Source: a virus
DNA length: 27,864 bases
Strand: one strand, 5' to 3'
Virus record (IMG/VR): IMGVR_UViG_3300013132_000204
Span: 1-27,864 of that record
A model generated the notes under the pieces. The model ran no database searches and had not been told where the DNA came from. It saw nothing but the letters and a program-made list of their open reading frames with translations. Below are positions 1 through 22,736 of the stretch, in pieces. The translations under genes were made by a program, and so were the position numbers. Position 1 is the first letter of the stretch; every line of letters starts with the position of its first letter.

Positions 1-2
1 CG

Positions 3-494: not shown

Positions 495-496
495 CC

Positions 497-772: not shown

Positions 773-1260
773 TCACAAGCGTTGTCCGCATGGGCCGCCG
801 CATGAGCCACCGCATGGTACACCGGGTGCTGGTCGGCCTGCTGGTGGCTGTGACGCTGGCGGTCGTGGTGCAGTCCTGGCGATTGAACTCCGAGCAGGGG
901 CGCCGCGCGGTGGCCGAGACAGGCCAACAGGCTGCACTGCAGCGCGTCCACGATGTCGAGCAGCGGGCGAAGACCCTCATGGCCCAGGTGGATGTGGGCA
1001 ATGCCGAGCAGGCCGAGTGCGCCGCCGCCAATGCTTCCAACGTGGCGACCATCCAGCGCTACGTGACCGCGACGGCGGCACTGCGCGATGAGACCCTGCG
1101 CCTGAATACCGATCTGGAACGCGTTCGCCAGGCCGCGCGCCAGGCTCGCACCGCCGACGACGAGGCCGACCGGGCCCTCGAAGCCCGCCCCGACCGCCCA
1201 TCCCCCGACGAACTCAATGCAGCGCTCGGCGAGCGCGGCGCCGGGTGGTTGTGGCAATGA
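769..1260 (+). CDS. Rz-like i-spanin (inner-membrane spanin subunit)
   Basis: 163 residues from a GTG at 769 that overlaps the previous stop as GTGA; the frame is open further upstream, but an earlier start would overlap the holin-like gene heavily. The protein has a short basic N-terminus, one TM helix at about residues 20-34 (VLVGLLVAVTLAVVV), then a long periplasmic helical region rich in Gln, Ala, Arg and Glu with coiled-coil character. This is the architecture of Rz-type i-spanins, which pair with an outer-membrane lipoprotein and fuse inner and outer membranes in the last step of lysis. A lipoprotein partner lies at 1619-1939. An alternative start is the ATG at 790. The call comes from architecture and context. 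Confidence 0.7.
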   Translation: MITSVVRMGRRMSHRMVHRVLVGLLVAVTLAVVVQSWRLNSEQGRRAVAETGQQAALQRVHDVEQRAKTLMAQVDVGNAEQAECAAANASNVATIQRYVTATAALRDETLRLNTDLERVRQAARQARTADDEADRALEARPDRPSPDELNAALGERGAGWLWQ

Positions 1261-1273
1261 TCCCCCCCAACCT

Positions 1274-1277
1274 GGAG
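1274..1277 (+). promoter_or_regulatory. Shine-Dalgarno GGAG deciding the start at 1284
   Basis: GGAG lies six bases before the ATG at 1284. The same frame offers a GTG at 1245 and an ATG at 1257 that overlaps the Rz-like stop as ATGA. Those would add a proline-rich leader and lack a comparable site, so 1284 is preferred. Confidence 0.6.
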
Positions 1278-1283
1278 ACTCCC

Positions 1284-1619
1284 ATGAGCGAAGAAGCTGC
1301 CATCCTGCGTGTGCCTTTCATCGGCCTGATCGTGGCCTACTGCCTGAGCGCCAGCGACTGCGAGCGCATCAACCAGCGGCGTGCGGATGCCCGTGATCAC
1401 ATCGACGAACACCGGGCGAACGCCAACGGCGTGCAGATCCATGTCGGCAACAGCGTGGCCGAAGGCGATGTGTACCCGATGCTTATCACGCGGGTGTGGG
1501 GCGACGGGCCCGACGCGCTCGTGAACGGTCAGGTGATGCTCGACGGCAATGATGTCCTGTGGACAACTTCGGTCAAGGTCGGCGAAGGCCCGCAGACATG
1601 GGCGTGGTCGACTTTCTGA
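1284..1619 (+). CDS. Small conserved phage protein of unknown function
   Basis: 111 residues. It begins with a variable stretch, then VPFIGLIVAYCLSASDCERI, a basic helical stretch with RRADARDH, and a C-terminal half with HVGNSVAEGDVYPM, the ITRVWG segment and VMLDGNDVLW. I recognise this pattern as a widespread small phage protein of the kind whose members carry GN-x-EGDVFP and LDGNDxxWVTSV motifs, but I know no function for it. The predicted fold is mixed alpha/beta without TM segments or signal peptide. It lies between the two spanin-type genes. Its stop overlaps the ATG of the lipoprotein gene (TGATG), so the two are probably translationally coupled. Confidence 0.75.
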   Translation: MSEEAAILRVPFIGLIVAYCLSASDCERINQRRADARDHIDEHRANANGVQIHVGNSVAEGDVYPMLITRVWGDGPDALVNGQVMLDGNDVLWTTSVKVGEGPQTWAWSTF

Positions 1620-1939
1620 TGAACCGCGCGGCCCTGATTGTCCTGTGCGCGCTGGGCGGTTGCGCCGGCCAGCCGCCGGTTGAGCCTGTGGCCGACCCGG
1701 TTGCAGCCCGGACGGTCACGCGCACCGAGACCGTGGACGTAGCGGTCGCCGCGCCGCGCGAGGTGCCGCCCGAGCTTCGCGAGCCCCTGCGCGTGGCACG
1801 GCCGACGCTGTTGCCTGCCGGCCAGGGTGACTACGGCCTGTCTCTGCAGGACGCGCTGCGCGTGCTGCGCATGGTGTCGGCCTACCGCCAGCACTACATG
1901 ACCTGCGCCGGCTTCGCGAGCCCGGAACCTGCGAAATAG
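1619..1939 (+). CDS. Rz1-like o-spanin lipoprotein
   Basis: 106 residues from the ATG at 1619. The N-terminus MNRAALIVLCALGGC is a lipoprotein signal with lipobox LGGC and modified Cys15, so the mature protein should be attached to the outer membrane. Residues after the cysteine are rich in Pro, Val and Arg, with PPVEP and PPELREP, as is usual for Rz1-type o-spanins. With the Rz-like protein at 769 it would form the spanin complex that disrupts the outer membrane. A GTG at 1559 and an ATG at 1598 are in frame, but they would bury the lipobox behind about 20 or about 7 extra residues. At 106 residues it is longer than the ~40-residue mature Rz1 of lambda, similar to non-nested two-gene spanins. 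Confidence 0.7.
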   Translation: MNRAALIVLCALGGCAGQPPVEPVADPVAARTVTRTETVDVAVAAPREVPPELREPLRVARPTLLPAGQGDYGLSLQDALRVLRMVSAYRQHYMTCAGFASPEPAK

Positions 1940-2017
1940 CCCCATGCCACACATCGGCCCGGACCGAGATCGCGCCTCCTGCGGCATCCTACGCTGTCAC
2001 TTTGGTGCCAACTGCCT

Positions 2018-2605
2018 GTGAAACCAGCACTTTCGCCCAAAGAAGAGCGCTTCTGCCTTGAGTGGTGGCAGAACGGCGGTGATGCGCTTGCAGCCTTGCG
2101 CGCGGCGTTCCCGCACACCGACAACTGGAAAACCGCAGCTGCATCGGTTAAAGCAAGCAGGTTGCTCGATTCCGATAAAGTGCAACTAAGGATCAAGGAG
2201 TTACGAGACGCCGCCGCCGCTGTTGCGATGGTCGGCCCAGTCGAAACGCTCAAGGAGCTGGCCGCGCTGGTCTTCAATGACCCCGCCACCGCCTTCGACG
2301 AAGCGAACGATGTCCTGCCCATCCGCGACATGCCTCGCTCGACCCGCGCCGCCATCGCGGCCGTGAAACAGCGCCGGACGTTGCGCGGCGATCTCGTGAC
2401 CGAGGTGAAGTTCTGGGACAAGAACGCCGCCCTGGATAAGCTGATGCGTCACCTTGGCATGTTCGAGCGCGACAACGCACAGAAGCAGGATGCCTACGAG
2501 AACCTGCTGCAGGCGATGACGCAGCTACTCGGCGGACCGCCGCCGCCTGTTGTTCGCGCCCCTGAAGCACCGCCCTTGCTGGAAGCACCGCCTACCGTGC
2601 AATGA
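2018..2605 (+). CDS. Terminase small subunit
   Basis: 195 residues starting at GTG 2018, 78 bases after the lysis genes. The N-terminal half (MKPALSPKEERFCLEWW, then DALAALRAAFPH, then a VKASRLLDSDKVQLRIKEL segment) matches the Terminase_2 small-subunit type, whose helix-turn-helix region recognises viral DNA (pac or cos). The middle holds a helical oligomerisation region (VGPVETLKELAALVFND), and a KFWDKNAALDKLMRHLG motif follows, as is usual in this family. The C-terminus is Pro-rich and probably disordered. It works with the large subunit, whose ATG overlaps this stop (ATGA). Whether packaging is headful or site-specific cannot be told from the sequence. The GTG start has only weak ribosome-binding complementarity. 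Confidence 0.88.
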   Translation: MKPALSPKEERFCLEWWQNGGDALAALRAAFPHTDNWKTAAASVKASRLLDSDKVQLRIKELRDAAAAVAMVGPVETLKELAALVFNDPATAFDEANDVLPIRDMPRSTRAAIAAVKQRRTLRGDLVTEVKFWDKNAALDKLMRHLGMFERDNAQKQDAYENLLQAMTQLLGGPPPPVVRAPEAPPLLEAPPTVQ

Positions 2606-4131
2606 GCGCCGCCGCCTCTGTGATGACCGACCAGATGCGGATGCTTCTGGAGTTCCGGTCCGACTTTGAATACTACGCGCCGCATGCGCTCAAGATACGC
2701 ACCAAGGACGGCAAGGTCGTACCGTTTCGCCTGAATCGGGCGCAGACCTATGTGCATCGGCGCCTCGAGACCCAGCGCCGCGACCATGGCCGCGTGCGTG
2801 CCCTGGTGCTGAAAGGCAGACAGCAAGGCATGTCGACCTACATCGAAGGTCGCTTCTACTGGCTGACCAGCGGCACGCCCGGTGTTCGCGCTTTCATCGT
2901 GACGCACGAGGACGCCGCGACCGCCAACCTGTTTGAAATGGCCGCGCGCTACCACGAGCACTGTCCGGCTTTCCTGAAGCCGCGCACCGGCCGCTCGAAC
3001 GCGAAGGAACTCATCTTCGATAGGCTGGACAGCGGCTACAAGGTCGCGACCGCAGGCACAAAAAACGTCGGTCGCTCATCGACCATTCAGTACATGCACG
3101 GCTCCGAGGTCGCGTTCTGGCCGCACGCCAAGGATCATCTTGCTGGCCTCGGGCAGACCATCCCGGATGCGAACGGGACGGAGGTCATTCTCGAATCGAC
3201 CGCGAACGGGCCCACCGGCGAGTTCTACAGCCTGTGGAACGACGCGACGTGCGGCCGGAACGACTACATCGCGCTGTTCGTGCCGTGGTACTGGCAAGAG
3301 GAGTACCGCCGCGCCGATGCGGTTGCGACGCTCGAGCTGACGGCCGAGGACAAGGACTATCAGGAGACGTTCGGCCTCGACGATGCGCAGATGGCGTGGC
3401 GCCATGCCAAGATCCGCGGCGACTTCCGTGGTGATGTCTCGCTGTTCGACCAGGAATACCCGGCCACCCCGGCTATGGCTTTCCTGCACATCGACGGCCA
3501 GACACTCATCAAGGCGACGCATGTGGTCCGCGCCTGCGCCCGTAGGGACCTGGAAGCGCGCGGCGCCCGCATCATCGGGGTTGACCCGGCCGAGTACGGC
3601 GACGACGACACAGCGATCATCTTCCGCCAGGGTCGCGTTGCGTCGGATCTCCTTCGTGTGCATGGCAAGTCGCCAATGGAGATCGTCGGCATTGTCGCGC
3701 GCATGGCTGACCGGCTGGGCGACATCGACGCGATCAACGTGGACTCGACCGGGCTGGGTGCTGGCATCGTGGATCGCCTCATCGAGCTGGGCTACCCGGC
3801 CAACCGCATCATGGTCGGTGAGTCCGCCATCGATGATGTGCAGTACGCGCGCCGTGGTGACGAGATATGGGGCGAAATGCGCGACTGGCTGGGCGACCTA
3901 TGCCAGATCCCGGATGACGAGGTGCTGCGCGGCGATCTGATCGCGCGCACGTACAGTTACGACTCGTCGCGCTGCATCAAGCTGACCCCGAAAGAGAAGC
4001 TGAAGGCCGAAAGCAAGAAGTCACCGGACGCCGGCGACGCGCTGTCGCTGACCTTCGCGACCCGATTCAACCCCAACTTCAAGGGCAAGAAGCTGAACCA
4101 TCAACGCCGCTCCCGTGGCAAGGTGCTGTAA
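2602..4131 (+). CDS. Terminase large subunit (packaging ATPase/nuclease)
   Basis: 509 residues, usual length. It powers translocation of phage DNA through the portal and cuts the concatemer. The N-terminal ATPase carries a deviant Walker A at residues 70-79 (LKGRQQGMST, the RQxGxS/T form usual in terminases), Walker B-like SEVAFW at 168-173, and coupling motif EST at 198-200 followed by ANG. The C-terminal RNase H-like nuclease has Asp328 in GVDPAEYGDDD, Asp381 in NVDSTGLG and Asp479 in SPDAGDALS, the expected acidic triad. It overlaps terS by four bases and lies four bases before the portal gene. All key residues appear present. Confidence 0.95.
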   Translation: MSAAASVMTDQMRMLLEFRSDFEYYAPHALKIRTKDGKVVPFRLNRAQTYVHRRLETQRRDHGRVRALVLKGRQQGMSTYIEGRFYWLTSGTPGVRAFIVTHEDAATANLFEMAARYHEHCPAFLKPRTGRSNAKELIFDRLDSGYKVATAGTKNVGRSSTIQYMHGSEVAFWPHAKDHLAGLGQTIPDANGTEVILESTANGPTGEFYSLWNDATCGRNDYIALFVPWYWQEEYRRADAVATLELTAEDKDYQETFGLDDAQMAWRHAKIRGDFRGDVSLFDQEYPATPAMAFLHIDGQTLIKATHVVRACARRDLEARGARIIGVDPAEYGDDDTAIIFRQGRVASDLLRVHGKSPMEIVGIVARMADRLGDIDAINVDSTGLGAGIVDRLIELGYPANRIMVGESAIDDVQYARRGDEIWGEMRDWLGDLCQIPDDEVLRGDLIARTYSYDSSRCIKLTPKEKLKAESKKSPDAGDALSLTFATRFNPNFKGKKLNHQRRSRGKVL

Positions 4132-4134
4132 ACC

Positions 4135-6846
4135 ATGGCCGCAGTCATGAACACCCCCGGCGCGCAGCTTATGCAGTCCGGCGCAACCGCGGACATTCTC
4201 GAACAGCAGGAGCGGCCGAGCGGCATCGGCCAGGCCGCGCCGATCACCGAGGAGGAATGGGGCCAGTGGCTGATTGAGATCCACGACCAGCCGCCGTTCC
4301 GCAAACAGCAGGACCGTGATTGCGACTACTACGACAACAACCAGCTGGATGCCGAGCAGTTGGCCGAGATTGAGCGGCGAGGCATGTTGCCGGTGGTCGA
4401 GAATCTGGTTCAGCCGACCATCGATGTGGTGCTCGGATTGGAAGCGAAGATGCGCACCGACTGGCGCGTGCAGGCCGATACCGACGAATTCCAGGACGTT
4501 GCCGAAGCGTTCTCGCAGAAGCTGCACGAGGCCGAGCGCGAGTCGCATGCCGATTACGCGCTGTCCGATGCCTACGCGAGCGAGGTGAAGGCAGGTCTGG
4601 GCTGGGTGGAGGTCATCCGCGCGCGCGACCCGTTCGAGTACCCCTACGAGGTCAACGCCGTCCACCGACGCGAGATGTACTGGGACTGGGCCAGCCGCGA
4701 CCGCACGATGAAGGATGCGCGGTATCTGTTGCGCCGCCGCTGGTTCGATGTCGATACGGTGGCAGCCTACTTCCCGCGCTTCAAGGAAGGACTGCGGCAG
4801 GTCGGCAGCGGCACCAACATCGACACATGGATCCGGGCCGACATGGAGGCCGCCGCGCGCGGCTTCGAGCTGGAATGGACAGGCCGCATGTCTACCGAGG
4901 AATGGGAATGGCGCGACACCAGCCGCCGCCGCCTCGCGCTGTTCCAGGTGTACTACCGCCGCCCGGTGCGAGGCTACGTGTTCAGCATGCCTGACGGCAG
5001 GCATGTCGAGTTCGACCCGCGCAACCAGTGGCACATGGCTGCCGTCGGCTCCGGCCGCGTGAAACCGCGCGTCGCGGTGTTCTCGAAGCTGCGGCAGGCC
5101 ATCTACTGCGGACCGTTCAAGCTGTCCGACGGCGACGTTGAGCGGCGAAAGACGCCTTACACCCCGTTCTGGGCCTACCGCGAAGACCTGACCGGTGTGC
5201 CCTACGGCCTCATTCGGTCGATGATCAGCCCACAGGACGAGGTCAACGCTCGTACCCAGAAGATGCTGTGGTATCTGGCCGCCAAGCGCGTGACCATGGA
5301 CAGCGACGCGCTCGACACCCAGCAGAACGACGTTCAGGAAATGCTTGAGGAAATTGCGCGCGCCGATTCGGTCGTGCAGCTGAACCCGAACCGGACCAAC
5401 CGCGACGACAAGGCGTTTCAGGTGAACGACAACCTGACCCTGGCCGATGCGCAGTGGAAGGTGCTGCAGGACAAGCGCGAAACATTGCAGAAGGTGCGCG
5501 GCATCTTCAACGCGATGCTGGGCAGCGAGGACGGCGCGCATTCCGGGATCGCGATCAACTCCCTCATCGAGCAGTCGATGACCGTGCTGGCGTCGATCCA
5601 GAGCAATTACCAGTTTGGCCGGCGCGTGGTCGGGGACGACATCGTCGAGCTTATCCGCCAGGACCACATCGGCCGCGAGGTCGAGATCCTCGTGGAAGGG
5701 CAGGGCGCCCGCAAGAAGACCATCATCCTGAACCAACGCGTGCGGGACGAGCAGACCGGGATGATCGTTCTCGAGAACGACGTAGAGCGCTCGCGGCTCA
5801 AGGTCGCGCTGGAAGATGTGCCGTCGACGCCGGCCTACCGCGCGCAGCAGATGCTCATCATGTCGGAGATCGTGAAGTCGGCGCCGCCCGAGATACAGGC
5901 CATCCTGTATCCGGTTTATTTGGAAGGCACCGAACACCCGAAGCGCAAGGAGCTGGCCGATCAGATCCGCAAGATGACCGGTACGCAGAACCCGGACGAT
6001 CTGCCTCCAGAGGAGCGCGCAGCGGTCATGCAGCAGCAGGCCGAGGCGGCAGACCTGAACAAGCGCATGGCGATGGCGCAGCTGGCCGAGCAGGAAGGCA
6101 AGGCCGAGACGGCCGTCGCCGCTGCCGCGAAGCTCCGCAAGGAGATCGAGACGCTGGGGCAGGGCATGGAAGGCGAGCAGGCCGCGGCCGTCGCCGAAAT
6201 CCAGAAAATGGCCGACGAGCAGATCCGCGCCATGGAGCAGAAGGCGGCGCTACTCGAGCAGGCCGTGAAGGACCGCAAGGACGAGATCGCGGCCAAGTAC
6301 AACGCCGAGGTCATGAAGGCCAGGTTGGGCGCCGCCGCCGAGGTCGAGACGGCCAAGGTCAACGCGAACAGCGAGCGCGTGATCACGGCGCTGGCCGAGA
6401 AGTTTGAGGAACTGAAGCGCGAGATCGCCGAGAAGGACGCCCAGATCGTGGCCGAGCGCGACGAGATCATGCGCAAGGTGCGTGAGGACCATTCCGGCGA
6501 GCAGTCGAAGCAGCTCGAAACTCTCATGAAGCAGATCGCGGAGGCCAGCGAGGACGCGGGCGACGCGATGACCGATGCGGTGAAGATGCTGGGCGAACAG
6601 ATGAAGGCCGCGAACGCTGAGATAGCCCAGGCGCTGAAGGCGGTGACGAGCACAGCCATAGCGCCGGCACAGGCGGCAACCGCCGCGCAGGACGATGGGG
6701 CCGTGGAAATCTCCCTCGAGACGGACAAGAGCGGCCGTGCGGTCGGCGCCGTGGTCAAGAAGGCCGGCGGCACGACGCGGTTCGCGATCAAGACGGATGC
6801 CAAGGGCAACCCCATCGGCGCGACGACGACGGGAGACAAGTCCTGA
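4135..6846 (+). CDS. P22-type portal protein with long coiled-coil C-terminus
   Basis: 903 residues; P22 portal is 725. It forms the dodecameric ring at the capsid vertex through which DNA is packaged and ejected. The core (about 1-620) has P22-portal-like features: a LPVVENLVQPTIDVVLGLEA stretch near residue 90, a wing region with WVEVIRARDPFEYPYEV, and a crown/stem region containing SGIAINSLIEQSM. From about 626 to 840 the chain becomes an almost continuous Ala/Glu/Lys/Gln-rich helix with strong coiled-coil character, which could form an extended barrel inside the capsid like the P22 barrel but longer. About 60 residues with beta character (ISLETDKSGRAVGAVVKK and after) close the protein. 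The start ATG is four bases past the terL stop, and its own stop overlaps the next start (TGATG). Confidence 0.9.
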   Translation: MAAVMNTPGAQLMQSGATADILEQQERPSGIGQAAPITEEEWGQWLIEIHDQPPFRKQQDRDCDYYDNNQLDAEQLAEIERRGMLPVVENLVQPTIDVVLGLEAKMRTDWRVQADTDEFQDVAEAFSQKLHEAERESHADYALSDAYASEVKAGLGWVEVIRARDPFEYPYEVNAVHRREMYWDWASRDRTMKDARYLLRRRWFDVDTVAAYFPRFKEGLRQVGSGTNIDTWIRADMEAAARGFELEWTGRMSTEEWEWRDTSRRRLALFQVYYRRPVRGYVFSMPDGRHVEFDPRNQWHMAAVGSGRVKPRVAVFSKLRQAIYCGPFKLSDGDVERRKTPYTPFWAYREDLTGVPYGLIRSMISPQDEVNARTQKMLWYLAAKRVTMDSDALDTQQNDVQEMLEEIARADSVVQLNPNRTNRDDKAFQVNDNLTLADAQWKVLQDKRETLQKVRGIFNAMLGSEDGAHSGIAINSLIEQSMTVLASIQSNYQFGRRVVGDDIVELIRQDHIGREVEILVEGQGARKKTIILNQRVRDEQTGMIVLENDVERSRLKVALEDVPSTPAYRAQQMLIMSEIVKSAPPEIQAILYPVYLEGTEHPKRKELADQIRKMTGTQNPDDLPPEERAAVMQQQAEAADLNKRMAMAQLAEQEGKAETAVAAAAKLRKEIETLGQGMEGEQAAAVAEIQKMADEQIRAMEQKAALLEQAVKDRKDEIAAKYNAEVMKARLGAAAEVETAKVNANSERVITALAEKFEELKREIAEKDAQIVAERDEIMRKVREDHSGEQSKQLETLMKQIAEASEDAGDAMTDAVKMLGEQMKAANAEIAQALKAVTSTAIAPAQAATAAQDDGAVEISLETDKSGRAVGAVVKKAGGTTRFAIKTDAKGNPIGATTTGDKS

Positions 6847-7724
6847 TGTATCTCATGGCGCTCGCAGATACCAGCCCGCACGCGCATTTCGAATCACTGC
6901 AGGCTGGCGTGCTGTCGGCCTGGGGCCTGCGCGATAACGTCGAGATACACGCCAACAACGTCTCCGAAAACTGGTCCTACGATGCCGTGGAGGATGCGGC
7001 TAAGTCGACCATGAACGGCGCGAACATCAGCTACGCCACGGCCGATCAGATCATCCTGCCCTTCGCTTCGGCCATCGACAGCAACGTCCACGACTACATA
7101 TCGTGGCAGTGCGAAGTGAAGTACGGCGCGGCCTGGGTCGGCGACCTCGGTGCGCTGCTGAACCACAAGGCCATCCGGCTCGACGACGCGGCGAAGCTTT
7201 TCAACGGCGGTGTCGGCGATGAGCGCATGCACGAGCTCCAGATGCGGTACTCGGTCACGGACGGCACGGCCGTCGCGGTGCCGACGCTGCGGAGCTACTC
7301 GTGCACGAACAGCCCCTCGACCAACGAGGATCCGCTGCGGGACAGCAACTCGAACCCGATCAACTGGCAGCCGGGCGGCTCGCGCTACTACCTGTCATCG
7401 TCGGGCAGCATCCCGGCCACGGATCACATGCAGTCTGGCAAGCCGTTCATTTTCCTGCCCAATACGTGGGTGCGCATCACCTACGTCTGGGACAAGGCGA
7501 CTGGGCTGGTCACGCTGACCATGGCCGACGCTGACAACCAGGCGGCGAAGGTGATCGAGTACCTGTCGTCGCGCAGCACTGGCCGCACCTGCGCCGACAC
7601 GCTGCGGTTCGAGTTCAACAGCAGCCAGACAGCGCCGCCGAACATGACGACGGATCACGACATCTGGTGCCGCAACGTCCTGATTGATGTGAACCCGATC
7701 CCGTTCGGCACGATGGCAGCCTGA
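6846..7724 (+). CDS. Putative lectin-like (LamG/concanavalin-type) virion protein
   Basis: 292 residues; I do not recognise a named family with confidence. The second half has a jelly-roll-like pattern: PFIFLPNTWVRITYVWD at about 200-216, then LVTLTMADADNQ, then LRFEFNSSQ and a final VLIDVNPIPFG. The NTWVRI...W...GLVTL...ADA arrangement is typical of LamG/concanavalin-like sugar-binding sandwiches. No signal peptide or TM segment is visible. It starts on the portal stop (TGATG), so it is co-translated with the portal, and begins the block of presumed surface proteins before the scaffold. A role in carbohydrate binding or capsid decoration is inferred from the fold pattern and neighbours. Internal Asn/Ser-rich sequence around 150-195 is probably loop. 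Confidence 0.6.
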   Translation: MYLMALADTSPHAHFESLQAGVLSAWGLRDNVEIHANNVSENWSYDAVEDAAKSTMNGANISYATADQIILPFASAIDSNVHDYISWQCEVKYGAAWVGDLGALLNHKAIRLDDAAKLFNGGVGDERMHELQMRYSVTDGTAVAVPTLRSYSCTNSPSTNEDPLRDSNSNPINWQPGGSRYYLSSSGSIPATDHMQSGKPFIFLPNTWVRITYVWDKATGLVTLTMADADNQAAKVIEYLSSRSTGRTCADTLRFEFNSSQTAPPNMTTDHDIWCRNVLIDVNPIPFGTMAA

Positions 7725-7758
7725 TGTACGCGGCTGACTGCTGTTTCAAGGTGTTACC

Positions 7759-8910
7759 ATGACCCTCGTCGCACTCCCTGGCTCGCCTATTCGTTGGCCT
7801 AACCCGTTCCCCAGCGGCGGCTTGCCGGCGCTCGCGGCTGCGTCTACGGCGGACGCGGTGGGCGAAATCATTGCGTTTATCGGGCATGTGCGATTTGCCG
7901 CAGGCGCGGGAACGTCCAAGACGTTCAGCAGCAGCGGCGGAAGACTGGGTTTTCGCACCGGCACCGTTGTGTGGGTGAATGGAGCGACGAATGTGCGGCT
8001 CGGCATTCAGGATGTGTCCGCAACGACTGGTCCCGTCATGCAGCCGGATCAAACGTGGACGGGCGAGACCTACGCTGACATCGTGCCGGGCGTGGATACG
8101 CTCAACTCTGCAGCGTGGAATAACATTGCAATGGACACCGGCAGCGGTCGCACGCTGACGCATGGTGATCTAATTGCCGTAGTTTTCGAAATGACGGCAA
8201 GGGGTGGCTCGGACACGTTCACACTGACTGGCCTCGCCGCATTGCAGTTGCAGCACCGCTCTTTGATGGTGCTGAAAACCGCCAGCTATGCCGCAGTCAA
8301 TACCATCCCGAACATCATTATCGAGTGCGACGACGGCACGCTCTGCACGCTGATGGGCGCGTTTCCATGCAGCAGCGTCACTACACGCACGTTCAACACT
8401 GGCACGGCATCGGCAGACGAGTACGGCAACCGCATCGTGCCGCCGTTTGCGTGTTCCGTGGATTCTCTGTGGTCTGCCGTGGATTTAGACGGTAACGCTG
8501 AATTCAAGCTCTACAGCGGCACGGCGGCCAGCCCCGTCGATGAAGCCGATGTGCAACTTGACGCGAATCAGCGTGCCTCGTCTGCAGGGCTGTTTCTTAA
8601 CGCAGGATTGGCGACCAAGGAAACACTGACGGCAGGCGCAGAGTACTTCGTTACCTGCCGGCCAACTTCCGTGACCTCGTTGTCACTTGCCGAAATAGGC
8701 GTCAACAGTAACGCGCATCTTGCTTTCTGGCCTGGTGGAGTGGACTGCTACAAAGTGACGCGCTTGGATGACGCGGGCGCGCTGACTGCCACGACAACGG
8801 CGGTATTTCTGATGGGTTTCGGCATCTGCGAGCTGGATGATGGGGCTGGCGGTGGCGGTGGAGGCGGTGGAATCAGTCGGGCGCGCGCCGGATCGGGAAT
8901 GGGATCATGA
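7759..8910 (+). CDS. Putative virion surface protein with oligoglycine hinge
   Basis: 383 residues, not assigned to a named family. The start at 7759 has AAGG upstream. The body is rich in Thr, Ala, Gly and Val with short alternating strands, suggesting beta-sandwich domains: one at about 40-170 (FIGHVRFAAG to ALQLQHRS) and a second at about 200-355 (TFNTGTASADEYGNRI, FKLYSGTAASP, EYFVTCRP). The C-terminus is distinctive: acidic ELDDGA, eight consecutive glycines (364-371), then ISRARAGSGMGS. Such a tail could be a flexible tether. Sampled lines of this gene carry less G+C (31 and 34 of 60 at 8161 and 8281) than a portal line (38 of 60 at 4861), a hint of different ancestry. Its stop overlaps the fibre start (ATGA). 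Confidence 0.6.
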   Translation: MTLVALPGSPIRWPNPFPSGGLPALAAASTADAVGEIIAFIGHVRFAAGAGTSKTFSSSGGRLGFRTGTVVWVNGATNVRLGIQDVSATTGPVMQPDQTWTGETYADIVPGVDTLNSAAWNNIAMDTGSGRTLTHGDLIAVVFEMTARGGSDTFTLTGLAALQLQHRSLMVLKTASYAAVNTIPNIIIECDDGTLCTLMGAFPCSSVTTRTFNTGTASADEYGNRIVPPFACSVDSLWSAVDLDGNAEFKLYSGTAASPVDEADVQLDANQRASSAGLFLNAGLATKETLTAGAEYFVTCRPTSVTSLSLAEIGVNSNAHLAFWPGGVDCYKVTRLDDAGALTATTTAVFLMGFGICELDDGAGGGGGGGGISRARAGSGMGS

Positions 8911-10106
8911 GTGAACGTATTCCGCAGTCCAGTTCGAAGCGCGTGGTGTTCCGCGCGTTTCTTTCCAGTGACCACGTAACGCCAGCGACCGGCAAAACCA
9001 TCGCGATCACGATCAGCAAGAACGGCGGCGCCTTCGCCAACCCCGCAGCGGGTGCAACGAACGCCACGGAGATCGCCAGCGGCTTCTATTACTTCGATCT
9101 CGGCACGGGCGACACCGACACGCTTGGCCCCTTGGCGTACCGGGGCGCCGAGGGCACTATTGACGATGTGGGCGATTGCTACACGGTTGCAACCGGCCTG
9201 GAGTTTGCAGCAAACGTAACGCAATTCGGCGGTGTCGCAGGCACATTCAGCGGCGGCCGGCCGGAAGTGAACGTCAGTCACATTTCCGGCGACTCAGCAG
9301 CGGCGGACAACTGCGAGGCGTGGTTCGACGGGACCGGGTACGCGGGCACGAACAATGTCATCCCGACCGTGACCACCGTCAACGGGCTGGCGGCTGGCGT
9401 GATTACAGAGGCCAGCATTGCGGCTGACGCCATCACGGCAGCAAAGATTGCCACGGGCGCCATCGACGCTGATGCAATAGCGGCGGACGCGATCACGGCG
9501 GCGAAGATCGCAGACGGCGCGATTGACGCCGCGACATTCGCGGCAGGTGCTATCAATGCCGCCGCCATCGCAGACGGCGCAATTGACGCGGCGACCTTCA
9601 CGGGCGGCACGCTGCTGGACGCGGCCGGTATTCGCGCTGCGCTGGGCCTTGCTGCGGCGAACTTGGACACGCAGCTTTCCGGGGTTCCGACAGCCGTCTG
9701 GGGCGCTGGGACACGCCAACTGACCGGAACACAGACGTTCAACCTGACCGGCAGCATCACCGGAAACCTCAGCGGCTCCGTCGGTAGCGTGAGCGGTTCC
9801 GTGGCCAGCGTCGCGGGGGCTGTGGGATCTGTAACTGGCGATGTCGGCGGCAACGTGGCTGGCTCTGTCGGAAGCGTCACCGGCCTGACCACTGCGACCA
9901 TCGCCGCAGCGGTATGGGGATACACACTTGAAGGCGCCATGACTGCCATCCATTGGGCGCGCATCGTTCTGGCGGCGCTGGCCGGCAAGTCGAGCGGTCA
10001 TTCAACGTCGTCCCCGGCATACCGTGACCTTGCTGATACCAAGAATCGGATCACGGCCACGACGGACGCTGACGGACGCACATCGGTGACCCTGGACGGC
10101 AGCTGA
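8907..10106 (+). CDS. Repeat-rich putative fibre protein
   Basis: 399 residues. An N-terminal beta domain (about 1-160; VFRAFLSSDHVTPATGKTIA, then GFYYFDLGTGDTD) is followed by thirteen five-residue repeats at about 168-232 of the type ADAIT/AAKIA/DGAID/AATFA, then a linker (LLDAAGIRAALGL). A glycine-serine-valine repeat follows at about 279-326 (GSVGSVSGSVASVAG type), and the C-terminus has AAAVWGYTLEG and DADGRTSVTLDGS. Period-5 and period-4 repeats of this kind build rigid beta-helical or beta-prism shafts, so an elongated fibre projecting from the virion is likely. It is coupled to its neighbours at both ends (ATGA at 8907, TGATG at 10104). Receptor binding is inferred, not shown. Confidence 0.65.
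   Translation: MSERIPQSSSKRVVFRAFLSSDHVTPATGKTIAITISKNGGAFANPAAGATNATEIASGFYYFDLGTGDTDTLGPLAYRGAEGTIDDVGDCYTVATGLEFAANVTQFGGVAGTFSGGRPEVNVSHISGDSAAADNCEAWFDGTGYAGTNNVIPTVTTVNGLAAGVITEASIAADAITAAKIATGAIDADAIAADAITAAKIADGAIDAATFAAGAINAAAIADGAIDAATFTGGTLLDAAGIRAALGLAAANLDTQLSGVPTAVWGAGTRQLTGTQTFNLTGSITGNLSGSVGSVSGSVASVAGAVGSVTGDVGGNVAGSVGSVTGLTTATIAAAVWGYTLEGAMTAIHWARIVLAALAGKSSGHSTSSPAYRDLADTKNRITATTDADGRTSVTLDGS
9423..9602 (+). repeat. Three 60-bp tandem repeats encoding pentapeptide-like repeats
   Basis: Three consecutive 60-base units align without gaps, sharing blocks such as gcgatcacggcggcgaag and atcgcagacggcgc at 60-base spacing (for example 9507 and 9567). Each encodes four five-residue units with a central Ile or Phe and flanking Ala/Gly/Asp. 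Third-position differences between units show the protein pattern is kept while the DNA drifts. Confidence 0.85.
9741..9884 (+). repeat. Gly-Ser-Val low-complexity repeat in fibre gene
   Basis: Encodes residues 279-326 of the fibre, built from variants of GSV, GSVGSV and GNV with Gly or Ser at nearly every second position. The DNA is degenerate (ggctccgtcggtagcgtg-like units). It is a different repeat class from the five-residue repeats upstream. Confidence 0.7.
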
Positions 10107-10597
10107 TGTTCTTCGATGCCTACTTTCACGCCGAATACTGGCAGGTTGGGTATTGGGCGCGGAGTACCGGAGATCCTGTGGTTGTCGTGCCGCCGGTGCC
10201 GTCCGGCAGCGGTGGCTACGACATCACCGACGACGACCACGAGCGCGAAGAACACTATCGCAAGCGTGCGGAGTACATCGCCAGACAGGTTGCGACACCT
10301 GTCTCGCCGAAACCTGCGCCGCTCGAGGTCGCAGCCAAGGCGCCGGCAGATCCGACCCTTTCGATACTTTCGACACTTCCGTCCCTGGGGCTTTCGGACG
10401 CTGAAACTGTCGCAGAAGTCGCTGTCGCAAGACCGGCGAAACCCCGAAAAGCGAAGCCTGTGGCCGTCGCAGACGATCCAGTCACGGCTGAAATTGCGGC
10501 AATCGAGTCAGAGATACTGGCCCAGGAAGCCGCTGACCTGGCCGCGCACAACCAACGTATTGAGGCCCTTCTGCTGATCATGGCAGTGGCGGCGTAA
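10106..10597 (+). CDS. Small protein with aromatic N-terminus, putative fibre-associated
   Basis: 163 residues, no recognised family. The first 20 residues are strikingly aromatic (MFFDAYFHAEYWQVGYWARS), followed by a Pro/Val linker, a short charged helix (DDDHEREEHYRKRAEYIARQ), a Pro/Ala/Lys-rich disordered stretch, and a C-terminal amphipathic helix (PVTAEIAAIESEILAQ through LLLIMAVAA). Short phage proteins with spaced Tyr/Phe/Trp at the N-terminus often follow fibre genes, which suggests an accessory or linker role in fibre attachment. It starts on the fibre stop (TGATG), so the two are probably made in step. No TM segment is convincing, although the last ten residues are hydrophobic. Confidence 0.55.
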   Translation: MFFDAYFHAEYWQVGYWARSTGDPVVVVPPVPSGSGGYDITDDDHEREEHYRKRAEYIARQVATPVSPKPAPLEVAAKAPADPTLSILSTLPSLGLSDAETVAEVAVARPAKPRKAKPVAVADDPVTAEIAAIESEILAQEAADLAAHNQRIEALLLIMAVAA

Positions 10598-10622
10598 CAG
10601 AACGTAATCAGAGGACACGACC

Positions 10623-11129
10623 ATGCCCAGCGCACCACTACCGTCCACGTTCAACTTCGCCGAGAAGGGCATCGCGTTCGGTTTCGACCCGGACATCAGC
10701 CCGGCGGGCCTGCTGGTCCCTGCGTACATGACCAACAACGCCATGCACGTATGGGTGAAGTCGAAGCAGGCCGGTGAGCGCGACGAGAATGCGACCAACG
10801 GCAGCGACTTCATGGAGGTTTCCGCGGCCTGCATGGTGCAGGAAGTGGCTTTCGGGGCGGGGGACACGGTCCTGAGCACCGGCCCGGCCATTCTCTATGG
10901 CTACCGTGTCACGACAGCGCTCAGTGCCCACGCATGGACCATCGATGACGCCGCAGGAACCGTGCGAGTCCGGATCCTTGCCTCCAGCCCGGCCGGCCTT
11001 CAGACGCTACCCGGTCCGGTCATCTTCAAGACCAGTTGTACGGCCAATGTCGGGACGAGCGCATCGGCAGGCGTGATCGAGTTCTACTTCCGCAAGGTGC
11101 CTGCTGGTACCGTGGCCTGGGCGTACTGA
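10623..11129 (+). CDS. Putative virion structural protein, beta-rich, unknown function
   Basis: 168 residues starting at ATG 10623 with GAGGA seven bases upstream. The sequence has alternating short strands (IAFGFDPDISPAGLLVP, NNAMHVWVKSK, MVQEVAFGAGDTVLSTG, VRVRILASSP, VIEFYFRKVPAGTVAWAY), suggesting a small beta-sandwich. No catalytic motif, signal or TM segment is seen. It lies between the fibre-associated protein and the esterase, with one base separating its stop from the esterase ATG, so it is probably coexpressed with both. It could be a decoration or adaptor protein for the surface module; I do not recognise the family. Confidence 0.6.
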   Translation: MPSAPLPSTFNFAEKGIAFGFDPDISPAGLLVPAYMTNNAMHVWVKSKQAGERDENATNGSDFMEVSAACMVQEVAFGAGDTVLSTGPAILYGYRVTTALSAHAWTIDDAAGTVRVRILASSPAGLQTLPGPVIFKTSCTANVGTSASAGVIEFYFRKVPAGTVAWAY

Positions 11130-11130
11130 T

Positions 11131-12570
11131 ATGACGCTGACGGCTGGCGTCACGACGCTCGAGTCGATGCTCCACCCCTATCCGGCGCAGACGATTGGCG
11201 GCTACAGCGTCGGCTACAGCACCGCCTATGGCTCACAGGCCAAGACACGGTCATTCCGGGGACGACTGCCGGCCGGATACACCGCGACGAAGCGCTACCC
11301 GCTGGTGATAGCACTGCACGGTGGTCGTTCCGGCGGCGAAGACCAAGAGACCATGACGCAGTTGTCGGCGCGCGCCGACCGCGATGGGTTCATTGCCGTC
11401 TACCCCGATGGTCTGGGCTGGGACATCGTCCAGGTTCTGGGTGGCGGCTCAGGGAGTCTGACGTCGATCACGGTGGGCGGTGACGAGATCCTGACCGGCA
11501 CGGTGAACTGGACCACGAACGCCGCTACCACGGCGGGCCTGCTGGCTGCTGCCGTGGGTGCGAACGGTTACACGGGCGTCGCGGCGGGCGACTTCGTCTA
11601 CTTCGCGGGTCCGCACGGCGGCAACGTGCAGGTCGTCGGGACCATGTCTGAATTTATCGCCAAACTGAATCCGGGCTGGAACGCGTCCGATCAGGTCACT
11701 GGCTTCCCGGCGCCGTCGGCTGCCTCGCTGGCGATGGCCGGCTGTCCCTCGAGCTACGTGAACACCGACACATGGGCCGAGCGCTGGCACCTGCCTGATG
11801 TCGACTTCATTCGGCAGCTGATCGGCTGGGTGAAGCGCAATGCCTCCGTCGATGACCAGCGCATCTACATCATGGGCTTCTCGAACGGCGCACGCATGGC
11901 GCACCGCTGCGCGCGTGAACTGTCGGATCTTGTGGCGGGTGTCGGCTGCATGGGCGCCGGGATCATGCTGACGAACTACGACACCAACAGCCCCTTCCGC
12001 AACGTCCCGGCGCGGCCGGTGCCGCTCATCTACATGCACGGCACGCGCGACCCTCTCGCTTACTACGGCGGCGAGTACCCGTACCCCGGTGGTGGCGGGC
12101 CGGCGGATGGCGACTTGATTAGCTACAACCTGGGCAACGCCTACTACCTGAACCCGGACGAGACGGTGAAGGAGTACGTGCTGCAGGCCGGTGGCGACCC
12201 GACGAAGTACTCGCAGGTCGTGCTGCCCGAGGTGAACAACGATATCTACGACACATCGATGGTCGTGCGCCGCTGGAACGCACCATCTGGCACTGACTGT
12301 GACGTCGAGCTGTGGCGCCTCATCAACACCGGGCATACCTGGCCGATGCTGGGCGCCGAGAATTGGGCCTACGTGACCGGCAACTGGGCAACCGACATCA
12401 ACTTCATCGGTCGGCCGAACTATCAATTCAGCGCGACCGACACGATGCTGAAATTCCTGCTGCGCCATCGCTGGGACAGCAATGCGCCCGTGGCGCGGGC
12501 GTCGACCGCGACGCATACGCGTGAAGCGACGCGCCAGTACGTGACCAACCGCGCCGCCTCACGGCGCTGA
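11131..12570 (+). CDS. PHB-depolymerase/LpqC-type esterase with inserted domain
   Basis: 479 residues, longer than the ~300-350 usual for this alpha/beta-hydrolase family. Visible catalytic parts are the oxyanion HGGRSGGEDQ at 63-72, YPDGLGW at 91-97, nucleophile elbow GFSNGAR with Ser251, the acid Asp307 in HGTRDPL, and His402 in NTGHTWP. These belong to the secreted polyester/feruloyl/acetyl esterase group (PHB depolymerase, LpqC). Between YPDGLGW and VDFIRQLIGW, about 120 residues are inserted (about 98-218), including ITVGGDEILTGTVNWTTNAA and a YTGVAAGDFVYF segment that resemble small beta domains in phage tail proteins. No signal peptide, so it is probably virion-borne or released at lysis. 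A likely substrate is an ester group on a host surface glycan or polyester, but specificity cannot be read. Last gene of the block before a terminator. Confidence 0.82.
   Translation: MTLTAGVTTLESMLHPYPAQTIGGYSVGYSTAYGSQAKTRSFRGRLPAGYTATKRYPLVIALHGGRSGGEDQETMTQLSARADRDGFIAVYPDGLGWDIVQVLGGGSGSLTSITVGGDEILTGTVNWTTNAATTAGLLAAAVGANGYTGVAAGDFVYFAGPHGGNVQVVGTMSEFIAKLNPGWNASDQVTGFPAPSAASLAMAGCPSSYVNTDTWAERWHLPDVDFIRQLIGWVKRNASVDDQRIYIMGFSNGARMAHRCARELSDLVAGVGCMGAGIMLTNYDTNSPFRNVPARPVPLIYMHGTRDPLAYYGGEYPYPGGGGPADGDLISYNLGNAYYLNPDETVKEYVLQAGGDPTKYSQVVLPEVNNDIYDTSMVVRRWNAPSGTDCDVELWRLINTGHTWPMLGAENWAYVTGNWATDINFIGRPNYQFSATDTMLKFLLRHRWDSNAPVARASTATHTREATRQYVTNRAASRR
12551..12567 (+). other. Hairpin in 3' end of esterase gene
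   Basis: gcgccg at 12551-12556 and cggcgc at 12562-12567 form a perfect six-base stem with a five-base loop, just before the stop codon. It is the first of three hairpins leading to the terminator at 12604. It has no T-run of its own. Confidence 0.4.
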
Positions 12571-12603: not shown

Positions 12604-12626
12604 AACCCGCTTCGGCGGGTTTTTTT
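12604..12626 (+). terminator. Rho-independent terminator after the esterase
   Basis: The seven-base stem aacccgc/gcgggtt with a ttcg tetraloop is followed by a run of Ts to 12626. It is a textbook intrinsic terminator on the + strand and separates the surface-protein block from the scaffold gene. The remaining 104 bases to the scaffold ATG show no convincing -35/-10 pair. Confidence 0.88.
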
Positions 12627-12730
12627 GCGCCCGCAATTCCGAAACGGATCGAAAAACGCGCCTCGTCCTGCGCGGGAAAGCGGGTGTCTCTCAACCCTCG
12701 CAGCCATGCGACAAATGGCGAAGGTGAACG

Positions 12731-13663
12731 ATGGACTCAATGAACAACACCGAGTTTGACCTGGCGACGATTGACCCGGATTCCCCGGAATTCGCAGCCA
12801 TGTTGGACAAGGCGATGGGCGCTGAAGAAGAACTCCAGGACGAACAGGTCGAAACCAGCGCGACGGCCGGCGCAGCCAGGAGTATGGGGAACGAGGACAA
12901 AGCAACCGGCATCCTGGCCGCAGATGGCAAGCACATCATCCCGATCGATGTGCTGCGCAGTGCGCGCGCTGCTGAAGCGCAAGCACGCGAAGCCGCGGCC
13001 GCCGCGATAGCGGAACTCGAAGCACTCAAGGCGGCTGCCGCCAAGAGTGAAGCGGGCGACGAGATCGAAGTGGATGTCGAGCAGTCGGACGAACTCGATG
13101 CACAGCTGGCGACGCTCGCGGAGGACTACCCGGAACTGGGTGGGTTCGCCAAGAACCTCGCTGCGCAGGTGAAGGCGATGCGCGATGTCGTGAGTCAGCT
13201 CGCGGCAGACCGTGAAGCCAATGCGACGCAGGAGCGCGTTCAGCGACAGTTGAGCGTGCGCGAAGCCATCGACAGCAATCCGACCTTGCTCACATGGGAG
13301 CAGAGTGATCCAGAAGCGTGGTCGCGTGCCGTTGCATACGACAAGCTGCTGCGCGAACGGCCGGACTGGCAGGGGAAACCCATTCAGGAACGGTTCGAAC
13401 AGGTCGCGAAACTCGTCCAGGTCGATTACCCCAGCGCCAAGAAGCCCGTCGGCACCGCACCGAAGACGGACAACGGTATCGCATCGAAGGCCAGAGAGGC
13501 GCTCGCAGCAGCGAGTGACCTCGAGATCGAATCGCTGACTCAGATCCCGGGCGGTACGCCGCCGAACGATCAGGAATTGGCGGGACTGTCCGTGACGCAG
13601 CTCGAAGCAATGTTCGAGCGCAACCCGGACAAGATCGACGCACTTCTCATGCGCTACGCCTGA
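12731..13663 (+). CDS. Capsid scaffolding protein
   Basis: 310 residues, acidic and Ala/Glu-rich. The ATG at 12731 has AAGGTG at 12721. Short N-terminal sequence (DLATIDPDSPEFAAMLDKAM) leads to helical regions with coiled-coil character at about 72-106 and 120-178, then a conserved-looking AIDSNPTLLTWEQSDPEAWS segment at about 179-198 with YDKLLRERPDWQGK after it, and a C-terminal helix (SVTQLEAMFERNPDKIDALL). This is the usual composition and position of scaffolds in P22-like phages: immediately before the coat gene, assembling coat subunits into a procapsid and then leaving. Terminators of nearly the same sequence lie on both sides. Confidence 0.8.
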   Translation: MDSMNNTEFDLATIDPDSPEFAAMLDKAMGAEEELQDEQVETSATAGAARSMGNEDKATGILAADGKHIIPIDVLRSARAAEAQAREAAAAAIAELEALKAAAAKSEAGDEIEVDVEQSDELDAQLATLAEDYPELGGFAKNLAAQVKAMRDVVSQLAADREANATQERVQRQLSVREAIDSNPTLLTWEQSDPEAWSRAVAYDKLLRERPDWQGKPIQERFEQVAKLVQVDYPSAKKPVGTAPKTDNGIASKAREALAAASDLEIESLTQIPGGTPPNDQELAGLSVTQLEAMFERNPDKIDALLMRYA

Positions 13664-13742: not shown

Positions 13743-15038
13743 ATGACTGCGACTTCCATTCCGTCCAGCAGCGGGTTGGCGAACAAGCTGATTTCTGTCG
13801 CGCTGTTTGCTCAGACCTGCCGCTCTCCCAGCATCGCCAACATGCTCACCGGCCCCGCGCCGCAGGCAAGCGAAGCTTGTCGCAAGCTCCAGAGCCAGTC
13901 GTCCGCCGGCTATCCGTGCGTGCGCGTGACCAACCTCCAGAAGACCTGGGGCGACAAGATCACGATGGACTGCGTCAACATCGTCGGTGGCAAGCCCATC
14001 GTCGGTGACGTCAACGCCGAAGGCAAGGGCCGGCCGCTGTCTTTCAGCAGCCAGGAATTCGTCATCAACCTGCTCACGCAGGTGCTGGATGTCGGCGGCA
14101 AGATGACGCAGCAGCGTACTCGCCACGATCTTCAGATGCTGGCGAAGGACATCGCACGCGGCTACATGGCGCGTCTCGAGACCTGCCAGACGCTGGTTCA
14201 CCTGGCCGGCGCCCGTGGCGAACAGGCTGGTGATTCGTGGCCGGTGCCGCTTTCGAGCGACGCCGACTTCGCGGACATCATGATCAATCCGGTCAAGGCG
14301 CCGACCTACAACCGGCACTTCGTGTGCGATCACACGACCACGACCGATCTGGTCAAGGGCGGTCAGCAGATCCCGAACCTGACCAACTCGTGCTTCCTGA
14401 AGCTCGAACACATCGACTGGATGCGCACCTATCTCGACAATCTCGAGTTCCGCATGCAGCCGGTGAAGATCGCCGATGACCCGGCCGCCGAAGACGAGCC
14501 GCTGTACGTCCTGCTGGTGCCACCGAATTCGTGGCGTCACCTGCTGACGAACACCAGCGGCGCGGTGCTGCGGACGTTCCACCAGAACGCGTTCCAGCGG
14601 GCGAACTGGGGCAGCAAGCATCCGCTGTTCAAGGGCGAAGTCGGGATCTGGAACAACATCCTCGTCAAGAAGGTCGAGTACTCGGTCTACTGGGCGGCGA
14701 ACGGTTCCAGCACGACCAAGTACAACGCCAGCACCGACACCGCCGGCGAGGAAAGCGGCACGGCGACGATGCCGACCATTTCCGGGTGGCAGGTCGAGCG
14801 CTGCATGTTGCTGGGCGCCCAGGCGGTCGCCAACGTGTACGGCCGCAATCAGTCGTCGGACTACTACTACGGCTGGCTGGAGAACAAGTACAACTTCGGC
14901 CGTGCCAAGGAAATCGGCGTCGAAATGATGAACGGTAAGGGCAAGGTGCGTTTCTCGCCCAAGGATGCGACGGGCACTCCCATCGCTACCGATCACGGCG
15001 TCACCATCATCGACGTGGCCGCGAAGGCCATCCAGTAA
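13743..15038 (+). CDS. Major capsid protein, N4-gp56/DUF4043 type
   Basis: 431 residues forming the icosahedral shell. The start has AGGAG at 13730-13734, eight bases upstream. The family signature runs GDKITMDCVNIVGGKPIVGD (70-89), EGKGRPLSF, VLDVGGKMTQQRTRHDLQML (114-133) and LVHLAGARGE (151-160), matching N4-gp56/DUF4043 capsid proteins with an HK97-type fold. Further on, EDEPLYVLLVPPNSW and WGSKHPLFKGEVGIWNNILV correspond to the later conserved blocks. Position between scaffold and decoration protein fits. The gene has its own terminator upstream and a strong ribosome-binding site, as expected for the most abundant virion protein. A P22 gp5-type coat was considered, but the motifs fit DUF4043 better. 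Confidence 0.88.
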   Translation: MTATSIPSSSGLANKLISVALFAQTCRSPSIANMLTGPAPQASEACRKLQSQSSAGYPCVRVTNLQKTWGDKITMDCVNIVGGKPIVGDVNAEGKGRPLSFSSQEFVINLLTQVLDVGGKMTQQRTRHDLQMLAKDIARGYMARLETCQTLVHLAGARGEQAGDSWPVPLSSDADFADIMINPVKAPTYNRHFVCDHTTTTDLVKGGQQIPNLTNSCFLKLEHIDWMRTYLDNLEFRMQPVKIADDPAAEDEPLYVLLVPPNSWRHLLTNTSGAVLRTFHQNAFQRANWGSKHPLFKGEVGIWNNILVKKVEYSVYWAANGSSTTKYNASTDTAGEESGTATMPTISGWQVERCMLLGAQAVANVYGRNQSSDYYYGWLENKYNFGRAKEIGVEMMNGKGKVRFSPKDATGTPIATDHGVTIIDVAAKAIQ

Positions 15039-21017: not shown

Positions 21018-21493
21018 ATACCTGGACCGACGAATCCATCGCCGGCCGCACGCCGGAGCAGCTATTCGCCGGGAACGAAGCCGCCTACGCTCTTGCCCTG
21101 TTGCTCATTCAGGTCTCGAACGTGTGGGACGACATCATCGATGGCGACACCTTCACCGGTACCGCTGTGGATGCCTGTTTCTGGTCGATCCTGTCGGGCC
21201 TCCCCCGAAACGCGTTCTACCGCCAGCACCAAGCGACTCTGCAGCCGCTGATCGAGAGCGCCATGCTGGGCTACTTCTGCGCGAACGAGTGGGAAGAAGC
21301 GCGCGATCCGCACGGCATCGAGTTGGGTCACTTCCTGCGCTACGGGGTGACGCAGGTAATCGCGCACATCGTGTTCCTGTGCCTGGGGCTGGCAGAGGCG
21401 CGCAAGGTGCTGCCCAGCCTCTACGTCGCCCTGTGTGACGACCGCATCGACGACTACCGCCGCGAAATAATGGAGACCTCCACCGATGGCTAA
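21014..21493 (+). CDS. Helical phage protein with DDxxD motif
   Basis: 159 residues from a GTG start overlapping the previous stop. It is nearly all helical: EAAYALALLLIQVSNVWDDI, then DGDTFTG, a PRNAFYRQHQATLQPLIESA helix, AMLGYFCANEWEEARDP and HFLRYGVTQVIAHIVFLCLG. The WDDIIDGD motif (38-45) contains a DDxxD (39-43) like the metal-binding Asp cluster of isoprenoid synthases, and a second acidic cluster (DDRIDD, 142-147) lies near the end. I recall similar WDDxxDxD proteins in phage tail/ejection operons, but no activity is known to me. At this length it is too short for a complete terpene synthase. Its position directly before the ejection-type genes suggests a virion or assembly role. Confidence 0.6.
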   Translation: MNTWTDESIAGRTPEQLFAGNEAAYALALLLIQVSNVWDDIIDGDTFTGTAVDACFWSILSGLPRNAFYRQHQATLQPLIESAMLGYFCANEWEEARDPHGIELGHFLRYGVTQVIAHIVFLCLGLAEARKVLPSLYVALCDDRIDDYRREIMETSTDG

Positions 21494-22736
21494 CAACCCC
21501 TTCAAGAGCAAGGTCAAGGCCCCGAAGACCGATCCAGCGGTTGGCGAGATCGCGAAGACCCAGAACAAGCTGGCTCTCGAAGCGGCGACCTTTGGCCGCG
21601 AACAGAACGAGTGGCAGAAGGAACTCGACAAGTACCGATTCGACGTCGCGAAACCGATCATCGCGCAGCAGCAGGGCGTCGCCAACACCGCGCTCGAGCG
21701 CGGGACCGACGCGGCTGGCCGGTACGCGTCCGAATTTGCACCCCTCGAGGGCCTGCAGCTGTACGACTCGCTGGGCGCCGGCTGGACCTCGCTCGACGCG
21801 CAGAACCAACTCGCCGATCAGATGGCGCAGCAGCAGATCGCCGCTCTGGATGCCGACGTTGCCAGCGGACGGGTGTCGATCTCGGAAGCCAACCGCCAGC
21901 GGACTGCGATCCAGCAGCGCGCCGCTACCGAGAAGACCATGCAGGGTGTCTCGAAAGCCGCAGAGGACTCGGCCGCCTCGCGCGCTATCGCCGACACCGC
22001 TGCCGGCGAGGGGCGTTTCATTGCCGGTCTGACCGACGAGGCCGCACGCATGGGCGTCGATCCGTCGCGCGTCCTGGCCGGCGCCGGTGCCGCCTCGCCG
22101 TCGGCCGCGGCGGCGGCGGCGCACGCCGGCAACACCGCTCGTTTCGGGTTCCGGGAACAGCAGTCCACCAACCTCGCGCGCGGCGTGAACACGGGCCGTG
22201 CCATCGAAGCAGATGCCGATCAGGGTCTGGGCCTGGCCGTGAACGCCGGTAGCGCCGCCGTCGGCAACACCAATGCGACCCTGGCGGGCTCGACTGCCGG
22301 ACGCACCGCGCCAGCAACGTGGTTCGGGCAAGGTCAGTCCGGCCTGAGCGCGGCCAGCGGCACCTATCAGCAGCAGTTCAACAACCAGCAGGCGCGCTAC
22401 CAGAACGAAATGAATCGCGACAGCGGCCTGCTCGATCTCGCCGGCACCGCAGCGGGCATCTACATGGCGTCCGAGCGCAAGGTGAAGCGTCGCAAGAAGC
22501 CGGCGGGCACGAAGAAGGCCATCGACGCGATCCGCGACATGGACGTCGATACGTGGGACTACAAGCCCGGTAAGGGCGACGGCGGGCACCATGTCGGGCC
22601 CTACGCCGATGAAATGGCCGAGCTCGGCCTGTCCGACGGCAAGACGGTGCATCCGATGGACACCGCTGGTCTCGCGCTCGCGGGCGTGAAGGCCATCATC
22701 AAGAAACTCGACGCCATGGGCCTGGAGCACGCGTGA
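21486..22736 (+). CDS. Internal/ejection-type protein with peptidase-S74-like C-terminus
   Basis: 416 residues, overlapping the upstream gene by eight bases. The first 290 residues are Ala/Gln-rich, low-complexity and helical (NKLALEAATFGREQNEWQKE and onward), like P22-type ejection proteins. Near residue 329 the sequence MASERKVKRRKK introduces a C-terminal module: KKAIDAIRDMDVDTWDYKPG, then GGHHVGPYADEMAELGLSDG and DTAGLALAGVKAI. This resembles peptidase_S74 intramolecular-chaperone domains (S-D/E-x-x-x-K start, YkPG, Gpy/AqE, D-x-x-G...AikeL). Ser329 and Lys334 would be the putative Ser/Lys dyad and cleavage site. S74 modules normally end tailspikes, so its use here is unusual. Confidence 0.65.
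   Translation: MANNPFKSKVKAPKTDPAVGEIAKTQNKLALEAATFGREQNEWQKELDKYRFDVAKPIIAQQQGVANTALERGTDAAGRYASEFAPLEGLQLYDSLGAGWTSLDAQNQLADQMAQQQIAALDADVASGRVSISEANRQRTAIQQRAATEKTMQGVSKAAEDSAASRAIADTAAGEGRFIAGLTDEAARMGVDPSRVLAGAGAASPSAAAAAAHAGNTARFGFREQQSTNLARGVNTGRAIEADADQGLGLAVNAGSAAVGNTNATLAGSTAGRTAPATWFGQGQSGLSAASGTYQQQFNNQQARYQNEMNRDSGLLDLAGTAAGIYMASERKVKRRKKPAGTKKAIDAIRDMDVDTWDYKPGKGDGGHHVGPYADEMAELGLSDGKTVHPMDTAGLALAGVKAIIKKLDAMGLEHA

Follow-up and report, generated by a model that had tools for sequence, protein, structure and literature searches.

The virion esterases that we found described are of the SGNH type. Tail-fibre enzymes of this type deacetylate surface glycans, as in G7C gp63.1 and the Klebsiella prophage RBPs (PMC13123978), and the job that we propose for the protein studied here, de-esterification of host surface polysaccharide during attachment, is one that it would share with the SGNH tail-fibre and tailspike esterases. 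It belongs, however, to a different fold family, being an alpha/beta hydrolase with HGG and GxSxG motifs, and a search of the open-access literature returned no paper on PHB-type or LpqC-type esterases in virions. An extracellular PHB depolymerase (8DAJ/9BYU) and an acetyl xylan/feruloyl esterase (9J07/9J08) have the same fold and catalytic residues but lack the 86-residue insert that the present protein carries, and its bacterial relatives are exported whereas it has no signal sequence. The window analysed here, 27,864 bases long, is an IMG/VR virus record in its entirety, and the features discussed below are collected in Table 1.

Table 1. Coordinates in the window of the esterase gene, its sequence features and the neighbouring genes.
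Feature	Position	Strand	Evidence or remark
Portal protein gene, left border of interval	4135..6846	+	phrog_156, E 8.8e-131
Five genes between portal and esterase (starts 6846, 7759, 8907, 10106, 10623)	6846..11129	+	8907 tail-fibre-like
Esterase gene (479 aa); product an alpha/beta hydrolase of PHB-depolymerase/CE1 type, interrupted by an inserted domain	11131..12570	+	Pfam, NF050058, family HMM, Foldseek
HGG oxyanion motif, residues 63-65	11317..11325	+	H63 and G64 shared by 32/32 relatives
YPDG motif, residues 91-94, strand end preceding insert	11401..11412	+	Y in 29/32, P in 31/32 relatives
Inserted domain, residues ~97-182 (86 aa)	11419..11676	+	missing from relatives
WNA motif, residues 183-185, family WNxG resuming after insert	11677..11685	+	family sequences
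Lengthened loop, residues 186-216, ahead of family DDVxF (LPDVDF, 221-226)	11686..11778	+	family alignment
Ser251, predicted nucleophile, in GFSNG	11881..11883	+	S in 32/32 relatives
Asp307 in HGTRD	12049..12051	+	D in 32/32 relatives
His402 in GHTW	12334..12336	+	H in 32/32 relatives
Intrinsic-terminator-like hairpin and T run, directly 3' of esterase gene	12604..12628	+	AACCCGCTTCGGCGGGTT TTTTT
Scaffold-position gene, right border of interval	12731..13663	+	phrog_479, E 7.8e-37
Major capsid protein gene	13743..15038	+	Phage_capsid_3, E 8.7e-93; phrog_334

To judge from its sequence, the window protein is an alpha/beta hydrolase from the PHB-depolymerase/acetyl-xylan-esterase (CE1-like) group that retains a full set of catalytic residues and is predicted to be active. 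Pfam Esterase_PHB matched at residues 46-93 (7.7e-6) and Abhydrolase_2 at residues 235-309; the whole protein passed the gathering cut-off of PF10503 (25.7 vs. 23), the best stretch for that model being residues 46-93 only, which alone scored 18.2. No SGNH family was found in the Pfam scan of the protein, alpha/beta hydrolase families being found instead. NCBIfam NF050058 (e_dPHAscl_type1) matched in two stretches at 2.8e-28, and with 99.2 bits, under the curated cut-off of 150, and no sign of being an exported protein, the window protein falls outside equivalog-level membership of that model. A family HMM built from 32 relatives, all Bacteroidota (29 ORFs from Bacteroidota genome-search loci and three from L013-L015), matched in two blocks, residues 34-96 and 217-455, with E = 1e-48. 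H63, G64, S251, D307 and H402 aligned with the same residues in every one of these relatives; thus, the catalytic motifs are not a chance set, and the Ser-Asp-His triad, the GxSxG elbow and the HG oxyanion motif all occur in family order. The geometry of the triad was assessed by alignment and not from model distances. An AlphaFold model computed with seven relatives, a shallow alignment, had a pTM of 0.66 and pLDDT values of ~70-90 for the core strands and helices, and its top Foldseek matches in the PDB were the PHB depolymerase 8DAJ/9BYU (8DAJ, E 1.6e-13) and the esterase 9J07/9J08. The original prediction, which had assigned the protein to the PHB-depolymerase group and named the Ser251/Asp307/His402 triad with its HGG motif, is therefore borne out by Pfam, the family HMM, and PDB matches in both sequence and structure. 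It had also described the protein as lacking a signal peptide, and this holds as well: no hydrophobic N-terminal segment was present (best 12-residue hydropathy within the first 50 residues, 1.04), whereas an export signal was found in 31 of the 32 bacterial relatives (12-residue hydropathy >=1.7).

The protein departs from its family in the segment between the YPxG motif and the nucleophile, which spans 160 residues here compared with 50-67 in those relatives whose YP motif was detected. Relatives show a YPxG motif, a short spacer, WNxG, approximately 10-20 residues and then DDVxF. An insert of about 120 residues (98-218) after YPDGLGW had been proposed; the extra segment is real, but its boundaries are better placed at residues ~97-182, because the family WNA motif reappears at residues 183-185. 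The remaining length lies in the loop between WN and D223, which has ~38 residues against roughly 10-20 in relatives. Reading W97-D98 as the family WN would instead give an insert of 99-216; the conserved W97-N98 that appeared in an alignment made after deletion of residues 98-210 was an artefact of the join and was discarded. The match to 9J07 was split in the intact protein (1e-11) and became continuous (5e-16) once residues 98-210 were removed. Residues ~101-178 were predicted as bbb-alpha-bbb-alpha both with and without an alignment, at low confidence, and the structure prediction that had been called for was informative in part: the core matched 8DAJ/9J07, but the insert stayed below a pLDDT of 60 in the seven-relative run, and a single-sequence run gave a pLDDT of 31.

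The insert had been thought to resemble domains of phage tail proteins. Searched alone, it gave no credible match in PHROGs or Pfam and no tblastn match (E up to 10) in 50,697 phage records, and its PDB matches (methyltransferase, nucleosidase, citrate synthase) were at chance level and were set aside. Since these searches found no relative, the phage-like label is not supported. Nor is the insert the usual lid of the subfamily among the 32 Bacteroidota relatives. In the alpha/beta hydrolase topology, this loop, which follows the strand after HGG and precedes the nucleophile-elbow helix, lies on the catalytic face, and a role for the insert as a cap or in substrate selection is therefore plausible. 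It is also in such loops that lids arise, and the insert may, though we think it rather doubtful, be a lid that has become enlarged in this esterase lineage, neither a separate domain nor of phage origin, a reading that would suit whatever role the enzyme has. Its lack of relatives in Pfam, PHROGs, the PDB and phage genomes fits such an origin. It is less easily reconciled with 86 residues of regular strand-helix pattern in two predictions, with a maximum of 67 residues from YPxG to Ser in the sampled relatives in which the YP motif was picked up, and with the retention of both family motifs, YPxG and WNA, at the flanks of the insert.

The window runs from lysis-type genes (SLT transglycosylase) through terminase, portal, six further genes, the phrog_479 gene and the major capsid protein gene to tail genes, and its structural operon is podovirus-like. 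The placement of the esterase gene within a phage structural operon, as originally described, is confirmed by the portal, tail-fibre-like, phrog_479 and capsid genes around it, and the gene is virion-associated in the sense that it is encoded among virion structural and tail genes. Together with the five genes that precede it, the esterase gene occupies the interval between the portal gene and the phrog_479 gene, the latter a putative scaffold gene by its position. It is the final gene of this interval; its ATG lies one base past the stop of the 10623 gene, and the frame (+) is open throughout, with a GC3 of 0.83, similar to that of its neighbours. The hairpin that follows it was one of 9 terminator-like sites found over the scanned stretch, where 4.7 were expected. 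Among the five upstream genes, the one starting at 8907 matched phrog_892 (tail fiber, 2.8e-11). The other four (6846-8910 and 10106-11129) had no confident PHROG or Pfam match, and three of them gave no tblastn match in phage genomes. No virion-anchoring domain was recognised at the N- or C-terminal end of the esterase, and no close relatives of it turned up in scans of viral and genome collections or in profile scans of viral contigs.

Relatives of the capsid protein occur in phages including Achromobacter CF418P1 (50%), Pseudomonas 8P and F116. Because CF418P1, 8P and F116 carry zero or one small gene within the portal-to-scaffold interval, this interval is variable. In another phage fragment (L007), which shares 74% capsid-protein identity across the matched region, a gene for a right-handed beta-helix protein, tailspike-like, directly precedes the same scaffold-type gene, so that the slot can hold genes of the surface-enzyme type; the argument comes from one fragment, in which the beta-helix gene is cut at its 5' end. 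By analogy, L007 and the position of the esterase gene support a surface-enzyme slot here. A scan for relatives of the portal protein found none.

The same type of esterase occurs in the tail modules of three other independent phage groups. The best viral structural matches to the model were cyanophage tail-module proteins with a C-terminal esterase behind YHYH or subtilase domains, in which GxSNG, Asp and His are kept. These proteins (e.g. S-ShM2 SShM2_094, S-MbCM7_177; PHROG 2576) belong to the phage tail/baseplate module and share the esterase type of the window protein, but in them the esterase is fused behind YHYH or subtilase domains and has no insert after the YP-equivalent strand. SShM2_094 (L004, 4924-6645) is annotated as a gp7 baseplate wedge initiator; Pfam and alignment identify it as YHYH plus an alpha/beta hydrolase. 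The two other groups came from a motif scan of viral contigs with short exact patterns, which may miss relatives. In one (L062, IMGVR_UViG_3300031566_002791, 2-3220, minus strand), a PHB-type esterase with HGG, GISNG, HGDAD and FHIW motifs is nested within a tail protein (phrog_376, 2e-118), with one half of a repeat-like segment (GDFVKH ... IYRCKIAHTSGTF) on each side; a match to phrog_20269 covers residues 197-584 for 100 profile positions. Here, the tail protein hosts the esterase, whereas in the window the esterase hosts the insert, the reverse nesting. In the other (L053, IMGVR_UViG_3300045738_000588, a siphophage), a PHB-type esterase gene (4731-5810, minus strand) whose product has no N-terminal hydrophobic segment lies downstream of the genes for the tape measure and the distal tail; the genes that come after it have matches to sulfotransferases (weak) and glycosyltransferases (clear). 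An insert of the residue 97-182 type was present in none of the three. The description of the enzyme as unusual thus applies to the insert, the esterase type itself being found in three other phage groups. Two further loci were not counted as virion cases, one being a truncated end piece (L016) and the other having a signal peptide and a host-gene-like character (L056). MT838005 and MT838057 (L006 and L005), although filed as phage, appear to be bacterial chromosome fragments with transporter and metabolic genes and were therefore used as family members only.

The enzyme is well formed and the insertion is real, and a role on the virion is likely. On balance we favour the reading that the protein is an esterase of the adsorption apparatus that de-esterifies a host surface polymer at attachment. 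From the gene's position and the precedents in other phages, we infer that the esterase is built into the virion. Its gene closes the tail-fibre-type cassette that lies between portal and scaffold. The protein would be carried on the tail and, as the phage attaches, would cleave ester-linked groups (acetyl or other acyl) off the polymer at the host surface; the insert of 86 residues on the active-site face would serve as a cap or as a binding or oligomerisation domain that selects the substrate. A bolder version, which we put forward tentatively, is that the active-site rim of a tail-borne PHB-type esterase has been replaced by an unrelated, undescribed folding unit giving specificity for the host polymer, as part of a wider and unrecorded habit among phages of recruiting esterases of the CE1/PHB type into tails, with nesting in either direction (cf. 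L062).

The absence of an export signal would also fit a cytosolic metabolic enzyme, not part of the virion, that acts on stored polyester or other esters in the infected cell and feeds phage production, and the family match is to PHB depolymerases. We regard such a role as unlikely, given that the family is extracellular in type, with export signals in all but one of the sampled relatives, that the gene stands in a structural operon with a tail-fibre-like gene and not among early or metabolic genes, and that related esterases in phages are found in proteins of the tail module. The same precedents, in which the esterase is fused to a tail or baseplate-module protein or embedded in one, speak against a late-expressed free enzyme that is released at lysis and clears exopolymer for the released phages; this, too, seems improbable, even though the lack of a recognised anchoring domain is in keeping with it and the gene, as the last before the terminator-like hairpin, could be a self-contained add-on. 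That the gene is a degenerate, functionless passenger is very improbable: no close relative was present in the collections searched, which would fit such a gene, but its frame is open, all catalytic residues are retained and its GC3 is like that of its neighbours.

If the adsorption-apparatus esterase is indeed on the particle, the surface enzymes of phages also include esterases of the PHB-depolymerase/CE1 type, which phages can refit by placing a domain into the active-site loop. It would then provide testable candidates for de-acylating the exopolymers of environmental bacteria and raise the structural question of how the insert affects substrate choice.

Two other genes of the window deserve mention. 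At the right end, a giant gene on the plus strand (24262-27864) encodes at least 1201 aa and runs off the end of the contig; its product resembles a large internal or injected protein with multiple domains, and a 1161-aa ORF on the minus strand (23731-27216) was dismissed as a shadow of this open plus-strand gene. The plus-strand gene at 21486-22736 has a Peptidase_S74 (endosialidase chaperone) match at residues 331-379, near the C-terminus of its product.
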